Virus record (IMG/VR): IMGVR_UViG_3300033148_005434
Coordinates: 1 to 24,953 of that record
Direction: 5' to 3' (one strand)
Length of the DNA stretch: 24,953 nucleotides
Source of the DNA: a virus
Translations under genes and position numbers: made by a program
Shown: piece after piece, positions 4,216 through 22,856 of the stretch
Layout of the letters: every line of letters starts with the position of its first letter
Numbering within the stretch: position 1 is the stretch's first letter
Notes under the pieces: model-generated
Databases searched by the model: none
What the model saw: the letters and a program-made list of their open reading frames with translations, nothing else
What the model was told of the DNA's origin: nothing

Positions 4216-4661
4216 GCAACTTTATAGATAATCAAAAAGTAGTCGGCTTTCCAGAGTTTCGTCTTTATGACGAAAATATGAAATTAAAAGCCAAGTGGTC
4301 TGTTGGTAACTTAATTGTCACAACAGGGAAGATTTGGATTGCTGGGAAAATGGATGACACTGTTGATCCGGCCGCAATGTCTCATATGGCGATTGGCACC
4401 GGCTCAACTGCTGAGGTTGTTGGCGACACAGCGCTTGAAACAGAAAACGCTCGTGTCGGGCTAACAGATACCGTGAATGCAGGCGCTTCCGTTTTGTATA
4501 CAGCAACATTTGGGCCCGGGACTGGAACAGGCACCTTGCGTGAGGCCGGGATTTTAAATGCAGCATCAGCAGGAACGCTTCTTAACAGGACAACATTCGG
4601 CACACAAACAAAAAATTCTGGTGACACATTAACTGTCAGCTGGACTGTCAATATCACATAA
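4212..4661 (+). CDS. Phage tail appendage structural protein
   Basis: A 149-residue protein starting in an ATGA overlap. The core has HMAIGTGSTAEVVGDTALET, a glycine-rich strand TATFGPGTGTGTLREAGI and LNRTTFGTQTKNSGDTLTVS, a layout I recognise from small tail proteins found next to fibres in many tailed phages, where a beta domain forms part of the appendage base. No enzymatic residues are visible. The function beyond virion structure is inferred from family pattern and from neighbours (repeat protein before, collar protein two genes after). Confidence 0.7.
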   Translation: MSNFIDNQKVVGFPEFRLYDENMKLKAKWSVGNLIVTTGKIWIAGKMDDTVDPAAMSHMAIGTGSTAEVVGDTALETENARVGLTDTVNAGASVLYTATFGPGTGTGTLREAGILNAASAGTLLNRTTFGTQTKNSGDTLTVSWTVNIT

Positions 4662-4672
4662 GGTAAACCAAG

Positions 4673-5332
4673 ATGGCCACACAACAAAAGCGGTTATTTA
4701 CTAATAATGCATCAACAGTATTAGCATCCTCATTAACAAATGTAGCAACCACTGCATTTTTAAATACTGGCGATGGCGCATTATTCCCTGCTCCGGGAAC
4801 AAATGAGTTCTTCATGATTACATTTACTGACGCATCTGGAAATATTGAGATTTGTAAGTGCACGAGTAGGGCGACAGATACGCTAACAATTGAGCGAGCC
4901 CAAGAAGGAACAACGGGCTTACCATTTGTTGGTGGTGACGCAGCTGAGCTTCGTAACACAAAAGCCACTATGGAAAATTTCTCTCAACTGAATACACCTC
5001 AAGAGTATGAAAACGCCCATAATTTTAATGCAACAGAATTAACTGATGCTGCAACTATTGCGTGGAACTTAGACGAAAATCAAGTTGCTAAAGTTACGTT
5101 AGGTGCAAATCGCACGTTAGGCGCCCCAACAAACATGAAGGATGGTGGGACATATATTCTACGGATCATTCAAGACGCTACAGGCACAAGAACGCTGGCG
5201 TTTAATTCCGCGTTTAAGTTTCCTGACGGCTATTCGCCACCAATCAGTACGGCGGCAAATGCGATTGATATCATGTCCTGCATTAGCGACGGGACGAATA
5301 TGTACTGCTCGATGCAAAACGGATTCGCATAA
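4673..5332 (+). CDS. Phage tail protein, appendage component
   Basis: A 219-residue protein with AAGGT at 4661-4665 before the start. The N-terminal part (FFMITFTDASGNIEICKCTS, then TLTIERAQEGTT) is a motif common in phage tail fibre or spike base proteins: a strand pair followed by an ERAQ/ERGQEGT-type turn. The rest (VAKVTLGANRTLGAPTNMKD, YILRIIQDATGTRTLAF, FKFPDG) is the beta strand pattern of fibre shaft domains. The gene ends in a TAATG overlap with the collar protein gene, so the two are probably made together. Confidence 0.75.
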   Translation: MATQQKRLFTNNASTVLASSLTNVATTAFLNTGDGALFPAPGTNEFFMITFTDASGNIEICKCTSRATDTLTIERAQEGTTGLPFVGGDAAELRNTKATMENFSQLNTPQEYENAHNFNATELTDAATIAWNLDENQVAKVTLGANRTLGAPTNMKDGGTYILRIIQDATGTRTLAFNSAFKFPDGYSPPISTAANAIDIMSCISDGTNMYCSMQNGFA

Positions 5333-7917: not shown

Positions 7918-9701
7918 TAGATATTAAAGGTGTCCACGGGATCCGCCCAAAGATTGACTCAAAGCTTTTAAAGATAAATGAGAGTCAGACTGCTGATAAT
8001 TGTAATTTGTCGTCAGGAGCAATTAAGCCGTGGCGTTCACCAAAAAATATTTCCCAACTTGCAAAATCCGGCGATATTAAAAGCATCTATTACTTTAACG
8101 ATTCTTTATGGTTTCATTGGACAGAAGATGTTGATGTTATTCGCGGCCCAGTTTCAGGCGATACAACTGAGCGCACATATTTCACTGGTGTCGCAGACGG
8201 GATGAGGGTTACAAACTATTCTCTTGCAGATACCGGTGGAAATAATGAGTTTCCAGAAGACTCGTATTTAGTAGGTGTTCCAGCACCAATAAACCCACCT
8301 ACTGCGGCGCTAAATGGGACTCACTCTTCGCCATCAGACACAGCTTATGCTTATACCTTTGTTAATATCTGGGGTGAAGAGAGTGCGCCAAGTCCAGCTT
8401 CAAACGTAATAGCTGCTGATTTTACAACCGGCTCCGTCGACCTTACAAATATGTCCCAAGATTTTACTGGTGACTATGCAACAGTAAGTAAGTGGCGAAT
8501 TTACCGAATTGCGACAGGGACAAATGGAGCGGAATATTTATTTGTTACAGAGATAACTCCAAACGCATCATCACCACAATATAACGACACAATACTTAGC
8601 TCCGATTTAGGCGAAGTGCTTCCAACTATTGGGTGGGCGTTGCCGCCAACAAACTTGCGCGGCTTGGTAATGATGGGGAACGGCATCATGGCTGGTTTTG
8701 ATGGCAGTGATCTTTACTTCTCTGAACCGTTTATTCCTTATGCTTGGCCAATAAAATATTCACTAACATCAGATTATGAGGTTGTTGGAATTGGCGCATA
8801 CGGTAACTCGCTTGTGGTTGCAACAAAACATTACCCGTACATCATTACTGGGATGCACCCAGATTCAATGTCTATGGAAAAAATAGCGCATAAGCAGCCT
8901 TGCGTGTCAAAACGTGGAATAGTTTCTGTTGTCGGTGGCGTAATTTACCCAACACCAACATGCCTTTTTTACATTGGTGATAGCGGGGCTGTTGACATAA
9001 CAAAAAATCATTATACAAGAGAGGAGTGGAACGCTTTAACTCCAAACTCATGTTTTTCATCTTTCTACGATAATAAATATATTGGACACATGCCAGCACT
9101 ATCAAAATCAATTTGTTTTGATAGTGTAACGGAAGAATTATCAACCTTTAGTCAGCAAATGAGCGCTTTATGGTCTGATCCACTTGAAGATAAATTATAT
9201 TTCGTTGGGCAAGAAGACAATAAGCTTTATGAATTTAATGCTGGTGGGCAAAAAACCGTTTTTGAGTTTAAGTCGAAAAAATTCTCCATGAAAAACAAGC
9301 TGTTAATGACGGCAGGAAAAATTATTGGGGATTTTAGCGCTCAACTAACAGATGCCGAGCAAGCAGCATTAGAGGATGAGCAAGCTGCCGTGATTGCGGC
9401 AAATGCGGCATCGATTGCAGCTGGGGAAGTATATGGTGCGCTAAACGCCACAACAATAAATGAAGTGGAAGTTAATGGAGACAAGCTACTGCCTGTACCA
9501 CGGTTACCAGAAACCTCTGATTTTATTTTTCAATTGCTCGGTGACGGAGAGCTTATTTTTGAAAGCGTCATATCTAGCGATAAACCGTTCAGGCTTCCGG
9601 GAAACAACAGGTATACAGATTACGAAATCATTATTTTTGGGCAATACCCAATACAAAGGGTATTATTAGCAAGCTCAATAAGAGAATTAAGTCATGGCTG
9701 A
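7908..9701 (+). CDS. Large tail protein, hub/nozzle-like
   Basis: A 597-residue protein starting with GTG at 7908, with GGAG at 7896-7899. The opening (IKGVHGIRPKIDSKLL, then ESQTADNCNLSSGAIKPWRS) is the form seen at the start of podovirus tail hub/nozzle and DNA-stabilisation-type proteins, which list DNA-exit tube components. Repeated aromatic, Gly-rich strands (for example YFNDSLWFHW, NGIMAGFDGSDLYFSEPF, KLYFVGQEDNKLYEFN) suggest a beta-propeller-like body. An alanine-rich helical insert lies at about residues 480-510. It probably forms the distal tail tube. This is inferred from size, position and strand pattern. Confidence 0.65.
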   Translation: MALIDIKGVHGIRPKIDSKLLKINESQTADNCNLSSGAIKPWRSPKNISQLAKSGDIKSIYYFNDSLWFHWTEDVDVIRGPVSGDTTERTYFTGVADGMRVTNYSLADTGGNNEFPEDSYLVGVPAPINPPTAALNGTHSSPSDTAYAYTFVNIWGEESAPSPASNVIAADFTTGSVDLTNMSQDFTGDYATVSKWRIYRIATGTNGAEYLFVTEITPNASSPQYNDTILSSDLGEVLPTIGWALPPTNLRGLVMMGNGIMAGFDGSDLYFSEPFIPYAWPIKYSLTSDYEVVGIGAYGNSLVVATKHYPYIITGMHPDSMSMEKIAHKQPCVSKRGIVSVVGGVIYPTPTCLFYIGDSGAVDITKNHYTREEWNALTPNSCFSSFYDNKYIGHMPALSKSICFDSVTEELSTFSQQMSALWSDPLEDKLYFVGQEDNKLYEFNAGGQKTVFEFKSKKFSMKNKLLMTAGKIIGDFSAQLTDAEQAALEDEQAAVIAANAASIAAGEVYGALNATTINEVEVNGDKLLPVPRLPETSDFIFQLLGDGELIFESVISSDKPFRLPGNNRYTDYEIIIFGQYPIQRVLLASSIRELSHG

Positions 9702-12302: not shown

Positions 12303-15300
12303 ATGCAGTTATCAGAATTTCGCACCAAATACCCTCAGTACGACGAGGTTTCAGATACGGATCTTGCTCAAAAGCTTCACGGCAAATATTATTCCAACAT
12401 GGAGTATGATGTATTCGCTGAGAAGTTTGGCGTCGGTACGACTGATCCCGCCCAAGAAAAACAACCAAAACAAGAAGAATTAGGCGTAATTCCTGCTGAA
12501 CCTGCTTATCAATATGATAAAGCGGAAGATATCAGTGGCAGCGCTATGCCAGAACAACAGAAACGTAGCGCAGCTGAGTACGGATTAGCCCCAGAGCAAG
12601 AAGCACAAGAAGTGGCTGGCGTCACTATTGAGCCAGAACAATTCCCAACAATCTCTCCAATGTCAGAAGAAGGTCTGCTTGAGCGTGCACAAACACGCGA
12701 AGACCCATTATGGCGCCAGAAAGGCATGATTGAAGAATATCCCGGCGAATATACTGGCCGTCAACCCGGCAAAACAATGGAGCCATTGGGTGAGCGTAAC
12801 AAAGTTGCTCAGATAATCGATAGCATTATTGGTGCCCCCGGCGAAAAAACTGACGAAGAAGCTGCTAAAGCAACAATCGAATGGCAAGCAAGACAGGAAG
12901 GTATGTCTAGCTCTGAATTTCGTGAGCGTTATGGTGCCCGTACTGGGTTGCTTGAGCGTGGCATAAAAGACGTTGGATCTGGCGCCATTACCACAGCAAG
13001 TGGTTTGATTGGTTATGCAGCAAGATTAGCGCCTGATGATATTGGTGCTGGTTTACGTGCAGCCCAAGGTAATATTAATCAAGCCGCTAAAGACTTAATG
13101 ACTTATGACCCAAATCTTGTCGATGAAATTTTGGCTGGCTTTGGCTCAACAACTACATTTTTTGTTCCCGGTTTAGGTATCGCTAAAGGTGTTCAGGCAA
13201 TTTCAAATGTAGCGCCAAGAATGGCTCTATGGCTTGGTTCTGGCGCTTCTGCTGGAATGGAAGCCTCTGTTGAAGCAGGTATGGTTTACGATGAAATGCT
13301 TGAGAAAACGGGCAGTAAGGCCGAAGCCGTGAAATCAGCAGACCAAGTTTTCTGGGGTAACGTACCTTTATTAGTTATTACTAATAAACTGGGCTTATTT
13401 GCTGATCGTGGCAACCAGATACAGCGCCGCACTATGGCTGCAGTCATGGAAGGCCCATTACAGGAAGGCCCTCAACAAATTATCAGTAATGTTGCGGCTG
13501 GCAACCCAGCAATGGATGGTTTTGGTAAGTCAGTATTAATTGGCTCTATTGTCGGCTTCACTTTAGGTGGAACCCAGCAACCAGATAAAGCTGAGCTCGA
13601 CCGCATTGAACAAATTAAAGCAGATAAAGAATTTTCCTCTATGTGGAAAGAGCTTGAGGATCTTGCTGCAGAAACAAAACGTATTCGCAGTGAAGAAAAA
13701 TCTGCCAATAAACAAAAAGCATATGAACAGTTAGTTCGTGAAAAAGCAGCTCAAATTGCAGATGCTTGGGAAGCCCGTGAAGGTGGGCTTGATGTTGCTA
13801 AGAAAGCTGATGAGGATAAAGCTTATGCAGAAATGCAGAAAACTACTGTTGTTCCCGCTGATCTTGAGCCTGCAGCTCCCACTGTTGCCGGACAAATTGA
13901 ACAAAGTCTTGAAGCTGAAAAGGCAGAGCGAGCTGTTTCCGATAAGCCTAAGTCAGCCATGGAAGCTGCGTTTGAAGCAGCCAAACCAAAAAAGAAATAC
14001 GGACTACCTATTGAGGAGGCGGCGACCCAAGTGGACACCGCACCTACCGAGGCCCAAAAAGAGGCAGGTAACTACAAGAAAGGGCATACGCAAGTTCAGG
14101 GAATGGACGTAGCCATTGAAAACCCAAAGGGGTCAGTGCGTGAAGGTGTTGATGAAGGCGGTCAGAAATGGTCTCAAAAAATGGATGCCCATTATGGGTA
14201 TATTAAGCGTACTCAAGGGGCTGACGGCGATCACGTGGATGTTTTCTTGGGTCCTGATGCTGAAACTGCTAATACTTTTTATGTTGTTAATCAAACTAAT
14301 CCTACTACTGGTAAGTTCGATGAACACAAAGTAATGATTGGGTATCCTGACGCTAACACTGCCAAAGTTGCATACATGAAAAATTATGCGAAAGGCTGGG
14401 GTGGGTTCGATTCAATTGTTCCACTAAATACCGAGCAATTTAAGCGCTTCGTTCATAGCAAAGCAAAAACAAGTAAAGCGTTGCCAGATTCAGCGACGAT
14501 TCTAATGTCTACCAGCAAAGAAAAAGTGATGCCAGTCCAGAAAAAGATGCCAACTCCAAACCTAATGGATATGGAGCGCGATCCTCAGTATCAAGCTGAG
14601 AAAAAAGGCCGCCAACTCACAAAAGAAACGATGACGCCGGACGAATACATGTCTCGTGTGGCTAAAGGTTTTGGTCGTACCGTCGAAGAAGTTACAGCTG
14701 ATACCGAACAAAAATTGGTTGATGAGTACGCCACAAAAATGAAAGCGGGGACTAAATTCCCAATATTAGAACTTGATTATACTGATGGGTTTAATCAAGA
14801 AGGCCGTCACCGTGCTCTTGCTGCAAAACAGGCTGGATTTACTCAGGTTCCTGTTGCTGTGGTCACAAAACCTACGGCAAAAAAGAAGCTGGCCCCTAAG
14901 AAAAAAGGCTTTGTTGCTGTTTCGCCAAATGATTGGGATGTTGAAATGTCATTTGATGAGGCTGCAGTCTCTATTCGCTCTGAAAAACACCAAACTTCAC
15001 ACGCTATTACAGATGATATTTTAGACTCATTTGGTTTAGAGCATACAACCAGCGATGCTCTTGGTGACTGGGCTGATGGTGCAGAAGACAGTCTTCTTGT
15101 TGAGGTTGAATCGCCAGAGTCAGTCGATCAGCTAAACTATATTGCATCATTAACCGGTAAATTCTTTAATCAGAAAGGAGCTTTATCGTTTATTGTTGAC
15201 GAAAACGGTGTTGATTCATTCTATAAAATTGATATCCCAATAGAAAGTGGTGATATTAACGCTATACGCTCAACACTTGATGAGTTAAAATTAGAGTTTC

Positions 15301-18300
15301 GCACACTGGTTCCCACTTCTACCGGAACCACGGTTGTAATTTATGATGAAGGCACTACCCTTAGTAGTAGTGTCGCTAAATTTGGTAAAAAACATGAAAC
15401 AAACATCGAAGCCTACAAAGGTCAAGGCGAACTCATCGGAAGTTGGGACTCAAGACAAGACGGTATCTCAGCCTACAACCGCCAAATCGGCGCGTGGGAA
15501 CGGAACAATAAAATACGTTACAGCCCCACAAGGGAAGGGCTTCGTGATTTCTGGGGCACCGGATATCAAGAGCAAGGAGCAGAAACAGAAGTCTCGAGTC
15601 GGACGGTTGCCGCACCAATATCCTTATCTCGATTAAATGCTGAGCCAATTCCTGATGTTTACGGGAAATTTGGCACGCTTGACGCTAAAAAAGACACCAC
15701 TGAAAACCTAAAATTCTACGAACTCGATAAGCTTATTGCAAATCCGAAGTTAGTTAGGGATATGGTTAAAAGTTTTGGTTTTGAGGTTAAATATTTCTCA
15801 TTCCACATCGATGAAGATGCTGGAGTTGAATTTGTAATTCCAAAACTTAAAAAACAAGGGTACAAAGATGGATATTTATGGATCTACGACCCGCGTGTTG
15901 CCCATGGCTCGTTTAAAGATACTGAATATACTCGTCAATGGCGTATTGTCCACGAACTCGGACATGCGATCACAGAAGATTTCATGCAAAAGCGTTATGG
16001 AGATAGTCGCCGCGAAGGCCGCTTGGGCCAATCGTGGATGGCTACTCGTGGACACCCAGATAAAAAGCAAGTCCAAGTCGAGCTTGACCCGCTAACTCTT
16101 AAAGAGGCTCAGCGCGCTGTTGAGTGGGAAGATGTAGCTTTCCGTGTGCAACGTGTCTTATTTGAGTCATTGGGCGTCACTGTTGACCCTGTTGGCTTCG
16201 CTCATGAATATAATACTAATGTTGGTGATGCTTCATACCGGGTGTTGACCGGAGATTTTGGTGACCCCGGTGAATATGGGTTTGTTCCACGTGGAACATT
16301 GCCAGAAGTTAAGTCAGTGTTGAAAATGTTTGAGAATACTGAAAATGCGATGGCCAGAGAGCAAGGCCGCAAGCCTACTAAGGGTATTAACCTCAATACT
16401 TATAAACGTATTCCATTATCAGACCTTAAAAAAGCAATTAAGGATGCTGGTGATAACCTTGAGTCTTTAGCTAAAGGTAAACATAAAGGCTCTAGTGCTG
16501 AGTATGTTGAGAAAGTAGCGAATATTATCAGTAAAAATTGGACAAACTCACCTGAAATTATTGTTGTTGCCACATCGGAAGGTTTGCCTGCAATAGTAAA
16601 AGAAGAGCAAAAGGAGCGAGGCGTATTTGGTCGTGCCAGCGGTGTCTACCGCACAAGCGTTGGCGAGGTATATCTTGTTGCTGATCTGCTTGACGGTAAA
16701 GAGGCTATATTTTCGGTGGTTATGCACGAAATTATGGGGCATCACGGTGTCCGTGGCTTGTTCGGCACTTCATTAGACGGATTTTTGGATGAGGTTTATA
16801 AGGCAAACAAAGAAGCGATACGCGATCACGCAAAATCAATCGGCTCACCATTAGACCCAAAGAACCGCTACCGCATGACGGAAGAATTTTTAGCTGTTGA
16901 AGCTGAAACAAACCCCCAGTCAACTTGGGTAACACGATTAATCTCTAAGGTTATGCAGTGGGCTCGCAACATTATGCCTTCACTTAAGCTCACAAAGTCT
17001 GAGGTTATTGAGGTTCTTGTTGGCATGCGCCAATATTCTTCTGGCACTGAAATTAGCCAGATTGCTCAAAATACCGTTCAACAGATACAGAACAATATCG
17101 ACAGGGTTGATGGTGTTTACAGTGATACTGCTGGTCCAATTAAAAAGTTCAGGAAGCGCTTCTTTACAAAAGAGGGTGGTTTACCAGATGAGGGTTTTGA
17201 GGCAAAAATCAAAGCTGACTCGCTGAAAAAAGCTGGCGAAGAGGATGTTTCTTTTGTTGTTCATAGGTTTGAAGAGACAATGAAGAAATTTTTCAAAGCT
17301 AAAAGCTATATTTCTATTCCGGCGGCAGATTTAGAAACCATAAATAATTACCTTCATGGCAAGGATGCCAAGGTACCCACTGAGCTAAAGGAAGTCTTGG
17401 ATGGTATGCGTGCCTACATTGATCGCCTGTCTGCCGGAATGCAAAAAGCCATGGAAGACATGATGGCCATTGAATATGGAAAGCTAACCACTGAGCAGCA
17501 AGCGTCATTTGATGCCTTCCTTAAGGGTGAGCCAGAAGGAAGTATTCCAGCAGCAATTCAAAGCCATTACGAAATGCACAAAACAATATCTGATAATATG
17601 GGTACTTACATGAATCGCTCATATGAGGCTTTTGATAATAAAAAATGGAAAAACAAAGCGCTCAAAAACAAAGATTTAATTAAGCGTGCTGAGGCATATA
17701 TTGCCAACCTAAACCCAGACTTTTTGCCAGAAGAGGTCCATGGCGCTGTTCGCGGGATCCTGCAGTCAGCACAAGATAGCGGTAACTTTTTCTCATTCTT
17801 GTCGCAGGGGTCAAAATATGGGAAAAAAGATGTATCAATGCTAACCAAGCGCAAAGATGTTCCAGATATTATTCGTGAACTGCTGGGTGAATATACAGAC
17901 CCGCGTGTTAATTTTGTTCGCACCAGCACAAATATGTACAACTATTTAGCAAACCATGAATTTTTAATGCAGTTACGCTCAAAAGGTCTTGGCGTATTCT
18001 TATTTGAACGCAAAATCGGTGGCTTTGATAAACAGATTGCAGCAAAAGGGTCTAAGTCAATGAACCCTATTGATGGCCTGTATACAACAAGCGACTTTAT
18101 TCTGGCTTTGGAAGACACTCGTGACCCTATTGAGGGCGGTAAGTTAATGCGTGGGTTTATTCGCCTTAACTCAGCTATTAAGTACGGCAAAACGATTCTT
18201 GCCCCAACCACTCAAGCGCGTAACTTTATGTCTGCAGCGATGTTCTCCGTGATGAATGGTCACTTTAACTGGTCGCACGGAAAGAAGGCGTTTAGTGCTG

Positions 18301-19796
18301 CGCGATCAGATTTATGGACGAAGGACGAAACATGGCGCAAATACCTTAGCAATCTAATAACTTTGGGTGTGTTGCATGACAACCCGCGAGCAGAAGAGCT
18401 TCGGCACGCCCTTGAAGACTTTATGAAGATTGATATTTACACTAAGGGATCAACCCAGTCATTACGCCGTTTCTTGAATTTCGCGCAGAAGCTATATCAG
18501 GTTGGTGATGATTTTTGGAAGATTATCGGTTTTGAAAACGAGGTTAGTCTGCAAATGAAAACAGGGAAATCTCGCAAAGAAGTTGAGGAAAAAGCTGCCT
18601 ACCGTATTCGTAACGGGTATCCAACATATTCTATGGTGCCAAAAGCTATAAGAATGTTGCGTCGCACACCGCTAATTGGAACATTTGTTTCTTTTCCATA
18701 TGAAATTATCAGGACCTCATCAAATCAGGTTCGCTTCTTAGCAGAAGATGTCATGGAAGGGAATAAAGAGCTGGCGGCTAGGCGTGCTCTAGGTATGGCC
18801 ATGGCTACATCAATATCAGCGTCGCTATCTTATATGAGTATGCTACTGATGGGGCTCGACAAAGACGATGACGAGGCTGTGCGCAAAATTGATGCTCCAT
18901 GGGTCCGTAACTCTCAACTTATTTATCTTGGTTATGATGAGAATGGGTATCCAAAATATTATGATTTTTCATACTATGATCCGTATACCTATCTAAAGAA
19001 ACCAATTACAGCCCTCATGAACAACAATAATGAAGGTTTAGATAAAAAAATTATGGATGCCATGCTTGAATTTGGCGCTCCATTCTTTAGTCCAGACATT
19101 GCGGCTGGAGCAATAGGAGAGGTTGTCTTTAATAAAAAGCTAAGTACCGGTGGGCCAGTATGGAACCCGCAAGACAATATTAGTAAAATTGCTTTTGATA
19201 TGACAAACCACTTCCGTAAGGCAGCACAGCCCGGATCGTTTTCTAATGCTGAAAGCTTTATTAAAGCACAGCAGGGGTATACCTCACCGGGCGGCAAGGA
19301 ATATAAAACAGATGACGAACTATTTGCTTTAGTTGGTTTCCGCATGGGGACATTAAATATTCCAAAAGCCATGTCATATAAGGCTCTCGACTTCAATTAT
19401 GCAAAAAGGGGGGCTTCAAGCATTCTTAGTAAGGCTGTTAGTAGCGGATCGGACGTTACAAAAAAAGAAATTAAAACCGCATTTAATGGGATGATCAGGG
19501 CTAGGGAAAGCAGTTTTAACGAAATGATTAAGATGGTTAAAGCAGCAGAAAAATTACAGGTTAAAAAATCTACCATTTACAGGATCATTCTTGCTGGTGG
19601 TATAAGCAAGAAGAATGCTAAGTATATTATGGCTGGACGTGTTCCACGCTGGCGTATGTCATCTTCGTTTATGGATTCTGCACAAACTAGAGCTATAGCA
19701 ACCGCAAAGAAAGATAAGCGTCATAGTATTCGTAAAGAATTTTATGAGCGTAAGAAATACGTCCATGAATTAATGAGCAAACAAACTACTAACTAA
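12303..19796 (+). CDS. Giant polyvalent virion protein (2,497 aa): pyrophosphatase-like, ParB-like and two zinc-peptidase domains
   Basis: The start has AAGGA upstream. The N-terminus (FRTKYPQYDEVSDTDLAQKL) is a short module common at the head of phage polyvalent proteins. Hydrophobic Gly/Ala helices lie at about residues 220-330 and 408-425. Residues 585-722 form an inorganic pyrophosphatase-like domain (HYGYIKRTQGADGDHVDVFL). About 775-852 is ParB-like (NQEGRHRALAAKQAGF). HELGHA, with His1217, Glu1218 and His1221, is one metallopeptidase motif; HEIMGHHGVRGL, with His1475, Glu1476 and His1479, is another, with TEEFLAVEAE (1526-1535) after it. About residues 1117-1335 and 1377-1585 are the surrounding domains. 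The last 900 residues are helical, with a membrane-like helix near 2162-2187. Such proteins are delivered with DNA and act on host defence or envelope. Domain names are by recall. Confidence 0.75.
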   Translation: MQLSEFRTKYPQYDEVSDTDLAQKLHGKYYSNMEYDVFAEKFGVGTTDPAQEKQPKQEELGVIPAEPAYQYDKAEDISGSAMPEQQKRSAAEYGLAPEQEAQEVAGVTIEPEQFPTISPMSEEGLLERAQTREDPLWRQKGMIEEYPGEYTGRQPGKTMEPLGERNKVAQIIDSIIGAPGEKTDEEAAKATIEWQARQEGMSSSEFRERYGARTGLLERGIKDVGSGAITTASGLIGYAARLAPDDIGAGLRAAQGNINQAAKDLMTYDPNLVDEILAGFGSTTTFFVPGLGIAKGVQAISNVAPRMALWLGSGASAGMEASVEAGMVYDEMLEKTGSKAEAVKSADQVFWGNVPLLVITNKLGLFADRGNQIQRRTMAAVMEGPLQEGPQQIISNVAAGNPAMDGFGKSVLIGSIVGFTLGGTQQPDKAELDRIEQIKADKEFSSMWKELEDLAAETKRIRSEEKSANKQKAYEQLVREKAAQIADAWEAREGGLDVAKKADEDKAYAEMQKTTVVPADLEPAAPTVAGQIEQSLEAEKAERAVSDKPKSAMEAAFEAAKPKKKYGLPIEEAATQVDTAPTEAQKEAGNYKKGHTQVQGMDVAIENPKGSVREGVDEGGQKWSQKMDAHYGYIKRTQGADGDHVDVFLGPDAETANTFYVVNQTNPTTGKFDEHKVMIGYPDANTAKVAYMKNYAKGWGGFDSIVPLNTEQFKRFVHSKAKTSKALPDSATILMSTSKEKVMPVQKKMPTPNLMDMERDPQYQAEKKGRQLTKETMTPDEYMSRVAKGFGRTVEEVTADTEQKLVDEYATKMKAGTKFPILELDYTDGFNQEGRHRALAAKQAGFTQVPVAVVTKPTAKKKLAPKKKGFVAVSPNDWDVEMSFDEAAVSIRSEKHQTSHAITDDILDSFGLEHTTSDALGDWADGAEDSLLVEVESPESVDQLNYIASLTGKFFNQKGALSFIVDENGVDSFYKIDIPIESGDINAIRSTLDELKLEFRTLVPTSTGTTVVIYDEGTTLSSSVAKFGKKHETNIEAYKGQGELIGSWDSRQDGISAYNRQIGAWERNNKIRYSPTREGLRDFWGTGYQEQGAETEVSSRTVAAPISLSRLNAEPIPDVYGKFGTLDAKKDTTENLKFYELDKLIANPKLVRDMVKSFGFEVKYFSFHIDEDAGVEFVIPKLKKQGYKDGYLWIYDPRVAHGSFKDTEYTRQWRIVHELGHAITEDFMQKRYGDSRREGRLGQSWMATRGHPDKKQVQVELDPLTLKEAQRAVEWEDVAFRVQRVLFESLGVTVDPVGFAHEYNTNVGDASYRVLTGDFGDPGEYGFVPRGTLPEVKSVLKMFENTENAMAREQGRKPTKGINLNTYKRIPLSDLKKAIKDAGDNLESLAKGKHKGSSAEYVEKVANIISKNWTNSPEIIVVATSEGLPAIVKEEQKERGVFGRASGVYRTSVGEVYLVADLLDGKEAIFSVVMHEIMGHHGVRGLFGTSLDGFLDEVYKANKEAIRDHAKSIGSPLDPKNRYRMTEEFLAVEAETNPQSTWVTRLISKVMQWARNIMPSLKLTKSEVIEVLVGMRQYSSGTEISQIAQNTVQQIQNNIDRVDGVYSDTAGPIKKFRKRFFTKEGGLPDEGFEAKIKADSLKKAGEEDVSFVVHRFEETMKKFFKAKSYISIPAADLETINNYLHGKDAKVPTELKEVLDGMRAYIDRLSAGMQKAMEDMMAIEYGKLTTEQQASFDAFLKGEPEGSIPAAIQSHYEMHKTISDNMGTYMNRSYEAFDNKKWKNKALKNKDLIKRAEAYIANLNPDFLPEEVHGAVRGILQSAQDSGNFFSFLSQGSKYGKKDVSMLTKRKDVPDIIRELLGEYTDPRVNFVRTSTNMYNYLANHEFLMQLRSKGLGVFLFERKIGGFDKQIAAKGSKSMNPIDGLYTTSDFILALEDTRDPIEGGKLMRGFIRLNSAIKYGKTILAPTTQARNFMSAAMFSVMNGHFNWSHGKKAFSAARSDLWTKDETWRKYLSNLITLGVLHDNPRAEELRHALEDFMKIDIYTKGSTQSLRRFLNFAQKLYQVGDDFWKIIGFENEVSLQMKTGKSRKEVEEKAAYRIRNGYPTYSMVPKAIRMLRRTPLIGTFVSFPYEIIRTSSNQVRFLAEDVMEGNKELAARRALGMAMATSISASLSYMSMLLMGLDKDDDEAVRKIDAPWVRNSQLIYLGYDENGYPKYYDFSYYDPYTYLKKPITALMNNNNEGLDKKIMDAMLEFGAPFFSPDIAAGAIGEVVFNKKLSTGGPVWNPQDNISKIAFDMTNHFRKAAQPGSFSNAESFIKAQQGYTSPGGKEYKTDDELFALVGFRMGTLNIPKAMSYKALDFNYAKRGASSILSKAVSSGSDVTKKEIKTAFNGMIRARESSFNEMIKMVKAAEKLQVKKSTIYRIILAGGISKKNAKYIMAGRVPRWRMSSSFMDSAQTRAIATAKKDKRHSIRKEFYERKKYVHELMSKQTTN

Positions 19797-20229: not shown

Positions 20230-20670
20230 TTATCCGCTAGTACACCAGATTTTATCACGCTCAGTATACCAATGAGCATTGCCTGATTTAACCATAAGCT
20301 CGCTAACCTCACCCTTATCAATGATTACTGAGGCCAGAACCCTACCAAAACTGTCGTATTTAAGGTTATCAAGCACCACAAACTTAGAGTTTTCCAGTAA
20401 GTGTATTAAATATTCTCTTGATTTTTCAGCTAGGGCTTTCTCGCAATCTGGGGATCCACGTTTCTCAGGAGCATCGATACCACGAATCCTGACCCGAACA
20501 AAGGTTGTCTGGTAAATGTAATTTGATACCCAACCCTCAAATGAATCACCATCGAGATACCGGTCAACTTGAGTCATTTTATATGGCCCATACTTATCAA
20601 CGACGTAATCACCAGCGATTGGTTCAGATGCCCCAATAACAAAGAGTATAAATAAAATTAATGGCTTCAT
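20230..20670 (-). CDS. Secreted staphylococcal-nuclease-like (thermonuclease) protein
   Basis: A 146-residue protein. Residues 1-20 are a signal peptide (Lys2, hydrophobic ILFILFVIGA, cleavage near Ala19/Gly20), so it acts in the periplasm or outside the cell. LDGDSF with Asp42, VRIRGIDAPEK with Arg61, Asp66 and Glu69, and YDSFGRVLA with Arg110 are the calcium-binding and catalytic residues of the SNase fold in the right order. Cys76 and Cys143 could form a disulfide. The family cuts DNA and RNA using calcium. The ribosome site AAGGAAAA is within the element shared with the repressor gene. A role in destroying competing phage DNA or recycling host nucleic acids is inference. Confidence 0.85.
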   Translation of the reverse strand: MKPLILFILFVIGASEPIAGDYVVDKYGPYKMTQVDRYLDGDSFEGWVSNYIYQTTFVRVRIRGIDAPEKRGSPDCEKALAEKSREYLIHLLENSKFVVLDNLKYDSFGRVLASVIIDKGEVSELMVKSGNAHWYTERDKIWCTSG

Positions 20671-20682
20671 AAGTTTTCCTTA

Positions 20683-20961
20683 TTAATTGCTTCTCGCTGT
20701 GCAGTGGGCAAACATGGAAAATTCTTTGCTTTTTTTATTTGCTTTGTTTATTTCTCGATTTACCGATCCGGCAGAATGAGTGCCAATTTTACGCCTTGGC
20801 TCGGCTGGTGTTTTTAGGGCTTTATGGATATCCCACCCATTCCTTAGCCTGTCGCTAAGCGTATGTCTTGAAACAGAAGAAAACCCCATAAGCTCGGTAA
20901 TGGTCAGCATTAGGTCGTAATACTCGTATCTTAATTTTGCTTTTGGTCCAGTTCTAGCCAT
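20683..20961 (-). CDS. Small NUMOD-like DNA-binding protein
   Basis: A 92-residue basic protein. The core VSRHTLSDRLRNGWDIHKAL followed by KTPAEPRR resembles the NUMOD/HTH repeat found beside HNH and GIY-YIG homing endonucleases (G-x-S-x-x-T-x-x-x-R-hydrophobic-x-x-G-W-x-hydrophobic-x-x-A). No nuclease motif is present, so the protein has the DNA-binding part only. The start has only a weak purine stretch upstream. It ends 12 bp before the nuclease gene. It could be a transcription factor or the remnant of a homing endonuclease. Confidence 0.55.
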   Translation of the reverse strand: MARTGPKAKLRYEYYDLMLTITELMGFSSVSRHTLSDRLRNGWDIHKALKTPAEPRRKIGTHSAGSVNREINKANKKSKEFSMFAHCTARSN

Positions 20962-21791: not shown

Positions 21792-21820
21792 AGTATAGTT
21801 TATTATTGACAGGTAATCAA
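21792..21820 (-). promoter_or_regulatory. Leftward sigma70 promoter for the repressor gene
   Basis: On the minus strand TTGATT (21815-21820) and TATACT (21792-21797) are separated by 17 bp, 41 bp before the repressor ATG. It overlaps the -35 region of the rightward promoter, so both cannot be used at once. Confidence 0.6.
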
Positions 21821-21834
21821 TCGATGAGTAATAT
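21806..21834 (+). promoter_or_regulatory. Rightward sigma70 promoter with operator-like repeat
   Basis: TTGACA (21806-21811), 17 bp, TAATAT (21829-21834): a perfect -35 and a fair -10. Start of transcription is expected near 21841. The inverted repeat ATTGA-N7-TCAAT (21805-21821) covers the -35 boxes of both divergent promoters and is a natural site for the neighbouring repressor. It drives the long structured RNA region. Confidence 0.75.
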
Positions 21835-21940
21835 GCTTCCACTCGCTCAGAGAGATAAACCGAGGTAACTCGGGGAAAGGGGTAAGTCCTACACGACCCC
21901 CACCATTTATGGCAATTCTGAGCAAGCCGAAGTGACGTAC

Positions 21941-21978
21941 ATAGCTACGGATTCAGTTCTTGACTGGATATAGCTACG
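21941..21978 (+). repeat. Direct repeat ATAGCTACG flanking a hairpin
   Basis: Nine identical bases occur at 21941-21949 and 21970-21978, on each side of the ATTCAGT/ACTGGAT hairpin in the 5' part of the structured RNA. It suggests a symmetric internal element such as paired docking segments, but chance is possible at this length. Confidence 0.5.
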
Positions 21979-22226
21979 AGTTATTAAGACTGTATTGGGG
22001 GATAACCATGCTCCTTGGGCCGCTGTGAGGTGGTTCGCAGTAACAAAGCGAGTAGTGATCACTAAAGGGTAGAACATTAAGTCAGAGCGGGTACGCAAAG
22101 GCGTGTGTTCAATGATTTAACACGGACGGGGCTGGGAGGTCCAAAGTTCGTCATGATTAGTTGAGTAGCCGACAGGTTAAAGACAGAGGGTGTGTTGTAT
22201 TTTGATTTTTAACGAGATTGAAGCAA

Positions 22227-22376
22227 CTGAACAGCGCACATCTTCGTAGGTTGCAGATAGTATAGCTCAGCTGGTTAGAGCGTAACCCTTATAAGGTTGT
22301 TGTCGGAGGTTCAAATCCTTCTACCATCACATGCAAACGACTTGAAATCGTTTAAAAATGCAAAGACGCTGTTCAG
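22227..22376 (+). repeat. 10-bp inverted repeat enclosing the tRNA
   Basis: CTGAACAGCG at 22227-22236 is the exact reverse complement of CGCTGTTCAG at 22367-22376. In RNA this makes a closing stem around a 130-nt domain that contains the tRNA. It is the clearest sign that the tRNA is a built-in part of the surrounding RNA rather than a neighbour. Confidence 0.75.
22256..22329 (+). tRNA. tRNA-Ile(UAU), reads AUA
   Basis: A full cloverleaf can be drawn: acceptor GATAGTA/TACCATC (one A-C mismatch at the fourth pair), D stem GCTC/GAGC with the loop AGCTGGTTA, anticodon stem TAACC/GGTTG with loop CTTATAA (anticodon TAT at 22290-22292), a 5-nt variable loop, T stem GGAGG/CCTTC with loop TTCAAAT, then discriminator A. 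CCA is not encoded. UAU reads the AUA isoleucine codon, which bacteria usually read with a lysidine-modified CAU tRNA; AUA codons are frequent in this phage's genes, for example in the oxygenase gene. It lies within the structured RNA, so processing by RNase P and 3' enzymes would have to cut the larger RNA. Confidence 0.9.
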
Positions 22377-22689
22377 CGTAAGGTGAAAGTAACTTAAATC
22401 TACAGCCTTCGGGTAATGTAGAGCTCCTAAAGATGCAATCTGATGGAGTTTTGTCGAGGAGAGCACTCTGGGCGTTTAGCGGCGTTGAGGGGAATTGAGA
22501 TGGCAGAATAGCTTTGCGGAATAGGTCTACCGCCAGACCTTTATAACTAAACGGCAGTTATGTGGTTCTACTTTTGCGCGAGGGTTTCCGAGGCTTGAGT
22601 GGACAGAGGGGCAAGGTCAGCTGCAAACTGGCTCGTAATCCCCCTAAAGGAGCCGCACGATCCCTGTAGTCTCAGGGGATTAAAACACT

Positions 22690-22835
22690 AAAGTTTTTAT
22701 AAAAGAGCACGGGCAGTAAAAAAAGTAACTCTGCACCCATCACCGAAAGCCCGGACGGCGGGATGTGCGGCAACGGAGCATCGCAAGATGGAGCGAAGTC
22801 GGAACAAGCAGGTTGTGCTCTTTTATAAAAACTTT
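22690..22835. repeat. 21-bp perfect inverted repeat around a structured 104-nt core
   Basis: The left arm at 22690-22710 and the right arm at 22815-22835 are exact reverse complements for 21 bp (AAAGTTTTTATAAAAGAGCA plus C on the left). The core is GC-richer and has GGGCAG/CTG-CA-CCC (22711-22738) and CATC-GCAA-GATG (22779-22790, GNRA loop). In RNA it forms a long stem closing a folded domain. No transposase or target duplication is seen. It ends 9 bp before the ribosome site of the next gene (AAGGAGAG at 22844-22851). It is either the 3' domain of the giant RNA, a processing site for RNase III, or a separate RNA element. Confidence 0.85.
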
Positions 22836-22856
22836 TAATCGTTGAAGGAGAGAGCA

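Follow-up and report, generated by a model that had tools for sequence, protein, structure and literature searches.

To our knowledge, no function is known for GOLLD RNAs. An 833-nt GOLLD RNA was solved by cryo-EM as a 14-mer RNA nanocage with an unresolved linker that points inward, and the authors of that structure mention that tRNAs sometimes occur in this linker (PMC12286853). A tRNA in a mycobacterial GOLLD was called a pseudo-tRNA, and its expression was undetectable by Northern blot (PMC6582537). Here, we analyzed a stretch of 24,953 nt (hereafter the window) of the IMG/VR record IMGVR_UViG_3300033148_005434, a virus fragment with genes for a major head protein, an internal virion protein, RecT and a RecE-like protein. 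One open frame (12303-19796; 2,497 aa) takes up about 30% of the record.

An earlier note on this DNA had described a tRNA-Ile(UAU) enclosed by a perfect closing stem, with an A-C mismatch in the acceptor and no encoded CCA, and all of these descriptions proved to be accurate. The strands CTGAACAGCG (22227-22236) and CGCTGTTCAG (22367-22376) are exact and form a perfect 10-bp complement that encloses 130 nt (all window features are given on the plus strand). Screening of the whole window by ARAGORN returned a single tRNA, Ile(TAT), at 22256-22330, and the Rfam tRNA model (RF00005) scored the tRNA-Ile(UAU)-like module at 22256-22329 with 65 bits. Its D (4/4), anticodon (5/5), and T (5/5) stems are fully paired, as in the cloverleaf of a functional tRNA-Ile(UAU), and there is a G-C pair at 1:72. 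The acceptor has six of seven pairs, the sole mismatch being A22259-C22325. The discriminator A22329 is followed by CAT, so that CCA is not encoded, an arrangement compatible with CCA addition by the host. The parts of the tRNA stand in the normal order and not in the permuted order of YrlA RNA and permuted tmRNA. In 50 first-order simulations at the composition of the window, perfect 10-bp inverted repeats with a loop of ≤130 nt arose 4.2 times per window on average (maximum 12). Since about four such repeats are expected by chance, the stem alone proves nothing, and comparative evidence is needed.

Positions 22185-22678 match the entire GOLLD model of Rfam (RF02032, positions 1-416) with 122.2 bits and an E-value of 2.1e-33, a result that was repeated in a separate search, and represent the conserved 3' domain of a GOLLD RNA. 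The gathering score of the family (150) was not reached. A gathering score in Rfam is a curation threshold and no biological feature; the lower value here is probably due to the long insert together with divergence, and GOLLD relatives with other inserts scored from 89 to 333 bits. The model had zero matches among 14 control genomes. The domain begins with a hairpin (22185-22245; Rfam consensus structure and RNAfold) that carries the 5' strand of the stem in its internal loop, followed by the variable linker (22246-22366), into which the tRNA falls in the Rfam alignment. As judged from this alignment, the tRNA that the earlier note had portrayed as caged is a tRNA-shaped insert in a GOLLD linker, and GOLLD RNA with a linker tRNA is an already known kind.

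The 1.07-kb noncoding region was compared with a phage collection by DNA similarity, which returned tRNA pieces only, and the RecT/RecE region gave no match in that collection. As no wider DNA similarity was found, relatives were taken from sequence patterns in IMG/VR and from a RecT search. The latter led to locus L196 (82% identical RecT protein) and loci L198 and L199 (71%), each of which has a GOLLD at the same place. A further relative, L197 (RecT 83%), has no GOLLD at this site; an HNH-type frame, read by eye, lies there (about 4411-4880 of that record). Two endonuclease-like frames are present at 20230-20961 of the window.

Upstream of the RNA, a promoter-like site (TTGACA-17-TAATAT, 21806-21834) agrees with the consensus at 10 of 12 positions, a consensus match only, and is retained in L196 with TAGTAT as the -10 element. 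With the start placed by this site, positions 21840-22184 would represent the 5' domain of the GOLLD RNA, which is less conserved and outside the Rfam model; this segment is partly alignable to L196 and L199, and its length fits the published two-domain architecture. The approximately 840 nt from the promoter-like site to 22678 contain no convincing ORF and are partly alignable to relatives, and the length of this noncoding stretch is close to that of the 833-nt GOLLD solved by cryo-EM. The earlier note had missed that the stem and the tRNA would belong to a single RNA roughly 850 nt in length. Between the tRNA and the 3' strand of the stem, a small hairpin (AAACGA/TCGTTT, 22334-22355, paired by eye) recurs with altered pairs in the alignment with L196 and L199. 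A separate, strongly structured element (z -5.1), closed by a perfect stem of some 21 bp, lies just 3' of the GOLLD, at 22687-22838; it is present with altered pairs in L196, is absent in L199, and has no Rfam match.

A pattern for the GOLLD 3' end was found at no fewer than 119 loci in IMG/VR, and about 107 of those listed match RF02032. Most of the distinct sequences have a helix of 7-13 bp between a strand located just before the CAC(A/G)TC of the outer hairpin and one located just after GCAAA(A)G. Among 65 distinct strand pairs, several Watson-Crick types occur at each of seven helix positions, and 99.3% of the cells are paired, compared with 51% when partners are shuffled (maximum 59% in 2,000 shuffles), a percentage inflated by the restriction to records with a helix of ≥5 bp at the expected register. 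In unselected comparisons, the score was 21.2 with own partners and 15.1 with swapped ones for tRNA-bearing GOLLDs, and 18.0 and 13.9, respectively, for other GOLLDs. The same helix, between the internal loop of the hairpin and the segment after the linker, has 10 bp in the window and 10 bp, including one G-U, in L196. Its median length is 9 bp in tRNA-bearing GOLLDs and 7 bp in others, a difference confounded with lineage.

Because its 5' strand lies inside the internal loop of the hairpin at 22185-22245 and its 3' strand follows the linker, the helix is a predicted pseudoknot, and by family comparison the closing stem of the window is this conserved GOLLD helix. The earlier idea of the tRNA as a module of a larger RNA therefore stands, with the GOLLD linker as its place, while a free-standing 130-nt domain closed by its own stem does not, since the helix belongs to the GOLLD pseudoknot. 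The alternative of an ordinary tRNA that happens to be flanked by an inverted repeat, as the number of repeats expected per window might have suggested, can scarcely be entertained in view of covariation that is locked in position across the family and in L196, L198, and L199. The structure displayed by Rfam leaves the bases of the pseudoknot strands unpaired. Minimum free energy folds of the whole region and of the isolated domain did not yield the cloverleaf and the GOLLD hairpin together; such folding cannot handle a pseudoknot, and these folds were therefore not used as evidence.

Comparison with the close relatives bears on what the tRNA is for. The flanks of the linker tRNA are nearly identical in the window and L196, whereas the tRNA itself is Ile(UAU) with 6/7 acceptor pairs in the former and Lys(CUU) with 3/7 in the latter; L198 and L199 carry Lys(UUU) with 7/7. 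By this comparison, close relatives have retained the slot while exchanging the tRNA in it. The linker tRNA is the only tRNA found in the window and in the records of L196 (8.3 kb), L198 (8.2 kb), and L199 (46.7 kb), and no tRNA was found in the 62-kb record of L197. The possibility, raised in the earlier note, that the tRNA serves AUA decoding is weakened by the Lys anticodons in the same slot of close relatives and by codon usage, as AUA accounts for 83 of the 429 Ile codons in the main ORFs of the window and is neither rare nor strikingly enriched.

To examine linker tRNAs as a class, we searched with patterns in which a T arm is followed by the GOLLD segment that comes after the linker. 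Viral sequences contributed 58 new loci, the majority of which were confirmed as GOLLD, and bacterial genomes contributed five. Cloverleaves were parsed by a script that ignores the acceptor, and 39 clean linker tRNAs were compared with the other tRNAs of these viral loci (n = 226). Linker tRNAs have 4.8 of seven acceptor pairs versus 6.5 in the controls, of which 173 of 226 have all seven; in the best of three registers the values are 5.0 and 6.6 (p = 4e-21), and the difference persists after clustering at 70% identity (p = 6e-11). Counted from the open end, the seven pairs are formed in 51, 36, 59, 79, 85, 77, and 92% of linker tRNAs, compared with 86-96% in the controls. When any register was allowed, acceptor pairs came to 5.1 in linker tRNAs, hardly more than the 4.7 with swapped flanks, a baseline raised by the relatedness of the flanks. 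CCA is encoded in 3 of 39 linker tRNAs versus 154 of 226 controls; its absence from the remaining 72 controls makes an unencoded CCA common in real phage tRNAs. Improbable anticodons, which should not exist or read stop codons, were found in 7/39 linker tRNAs versus 5/226 controls. Examples are UUA (stop), AUA, and AUG in the linkers of L142, L067, and L138, respectively, all improbable for working tRNAs. The linkers of L055 and L132 hold tRNA-Lys-like sequences with perfect D, anticodon, and T arms in which the acceptor is gone and the T arm runs into the conserved GCAAAAG.

The anticodon stem is complete (5/5) in 42 of 43 linker tRNAs, representing 31 different sequences, and none of the 14 with ≤4 acceptor pairs is an exception. 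The set was found by the T-arm pattern and chosen for a clear core, a filter that favors intact anticodon stems. Several other linker tRNAs combine a perfect anticodon stem with a loop of 6 or 8 nt. The suspicion in the earlier note that the tRNA might not be charged thus receives support from the family statistics, namely the decay of acceptors, the 3/39 with CCA, and the retained anticodon stems. As a class, linker tRNAs do not look like decoding tRNAs in these comparisons; the copy in the window is among the better preserved, and doubt at the level of the class does not settle its charging.

On these data, the possibility of a working phage tRNA gene can be weighed. In this case, RNase P and a 3' nuclease would excise the tRNA, the host CCA-adding enzyme would complete it, and it would be charged for AUA, with the pseudoknot holding the cut GOLLD together. 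The good cloverleaf with its 65 bits and 6/7 acceptor, the 83 AUA codons in the main ORFs, and 58-nt stretches that match phage and bacterial tRNA-Ile genes at 84-86% are what would be expected; the family-wide decay of acceptors and lack of CCA, the Lys anticodons of close relatives along with an AUA usage that is not strikingly enriched, and the mycobacterial case, in which no mature product was seen (PMC6582537), argue the other way, and we regard this explanation as unlikely. Quite unlikely, in our view, is a harmless remnant, in which the linker tolerates inserts and tRNA genes from tRNA islands drop in, decay, and have no role. Acceptors do decay, many GOLLDs are located close to tRNA genes, and a tRNA lies in the linker of about 5 of the approximately 107 GOLLDs found regardless of linker, among the matches listed. 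However, anticodon stems that stay paired in 31 sequences despite loss of the acceptor are unlike neutral decay, even though the core filter favors this result, and close relatives show a refilled slot between flanks that are almost unchanged.

We favor a reading in which the GOLLD linker carries a tethered, mostly uncharged tRNA mimic that acts as a docking or decoy element, over that of a decoding tRNA for AUA, and assign it a probability of roughly 0.62. Transcription of the GOLLD RNA would start near 21840 and extend to 22678 or beyond, and the pseudoknot helix would anchor the linker at its two ends to the body of the RNA. By analogy with the solved GOLLD, the tRNA-Ile(UAU)-like fold of the linker might then be exposed on the inside of a cage assembled from several RNA chains, where it would remain attached, neither cut out nor charged for AUA, and its anticodon arm and elbow may contact some tRNA-recognizing partner. 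Several features of the window count against such a mimic, including the 6/7 acceptor with G-C at 1:72, the score of 65 bits, and the perfect remaining stems, as do the 7/7 acceptors of L198 and L199, the frequency of unencoded CCA in the controls, and the help that the core filter gives to the anticodon-stem result.

A more specific role would be that of a decoy for host defense nucleases that cut tRNA anticodon loops, with the cage offering many uncharged anticodon arms. Phage tRNAs that counter such nucleases have been described (PMC10264068, PMC11555353), and the retention of the anticodon arm with loss of the acceptor would suit this role. Lys anticodons (10/39 versus 17/226 in controls, p = 0.002) and NUU anticodons (15/39 versus 19/226, p = 6e-6) are also over-represented in linkers, by statistics that ignore phylogeny, as would suit a bait for defenses that cut tRNA-Lys. 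On the other hand, the anticodon of the window is UAU (Ile), and several anticodon loops have 6 or 8 nt. This role appears distinctly improbable for the tRNA studied here.

Four distinct GOLLD linkers hold a tRNA of another build, with permuted parts: L110 (13514-13662, minus strand, with a RF02032 match), L204 (4772-4900) with its duplicate L209, L205 (7622-7750), and L235 (3723-3847, minus strand). The order in these modules is T arm, 3' strand of the acceptor, discriminator and CCA (CCT in L235), a spacer of about 4 to 26 nt, 5' strand of the acceptor, D arm, and anticodon arm. All of them have a perfect 7-bp acceptor and are joined to GOLLD via the variable region, and minimum free energy folds (RNAfold) of three of them contain the T arm, the acceptor, an anticodon-type hairpin, and parts of the D arm. 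GOLLD linkers would thus accept two builds of the tRNA shape. No published description of a permuted tRNA in GOLLD was found in a limited literature search over a partial collection. YrlA-like matches elsewhere in phage tRNA islands show this order as well, but lack the anticodon arm. Since YrlA and permuted tmRNA, both matched in such islands, share the topology of the permuted modules, the notion that the latter constitute an entirely new gene type was dropped. In L204, a permuted tmRNA (8209-8581; RF04321, 123.8 bits; ARAGORN tmRNA*) lies in a tRNA island near the GOLLD with the permuted tRNA. In a phage tRNA island of L260 (2305-2605, minus strand), the model for bacterial class A RNase P RNA scored 52 bits, below its gathering score of 100.

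With permuted modules in four linkers, it becomes more plausible that the shape of the tRNA matters and not translation. As a tentative and somewhat unlikely extension, GOLLD linkers might form a dedicated slot for tRNA mimics, in which conventional modules keep the anticodon arm and lose the charging end, permuted modules keep a perfect acceptor and attach to GOLLD by their variable loop, and the cage shows many look-alikes to one class of target (tRNA-cutting defense nucleases, PNPase, or ribosomes), with the anticodon set by the target and not by codon demand. In any case, a vague remark on linker tRNAs can now be turned into testable statements, that is, they are probably no carriers of amino acids, their anticodon arm is kept, and their identity is exchanged among close relatives, and the search for what GOLLD cages hold or capture is narrowed.

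Compared with known systems, the RNA of the window resembles the GOLLD of the cryo-EM study in its full-length match to the 3' domain, linker position, predicted size, phage origin, and the presence of tRNAs in the linker, but it scores below the gathering cut-off and is divergent from the solved sequence, the GOLLD for which a cage is known (PMC12286853). With the mycobacterial pseudo-tRNA it shares a tRNA-like sequence inside a GOLLD gene that is doubtful as a tRNA, whereas the mycobacterial one, compared here by its published description, is located in a bacterial tRNA cluster (PMC6582537). YrlA RNA and permuted tmRNA (RF02553, RF04321) likewise mimic tRNA by a module within a larger RNA, and their permuted order of parts is that of the linkers of L110, L204, L205, and L235; the tRNA of the window, however, has the normal order, the YrlA-like copies are without an anticodon arm, and the modules reside in different RNAs. 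Ordinary phage tRNA genes have in common with the window tRNA the cloverleaf, the T loop, and an anticodon flanked by U33 and A37, but the latter is embedded in another RNA, with an acceptor mismatch and without CCA, and as a class linker tRNAs differ strongly from the 226 controls, which are phage tRNAs encoded at these loci.
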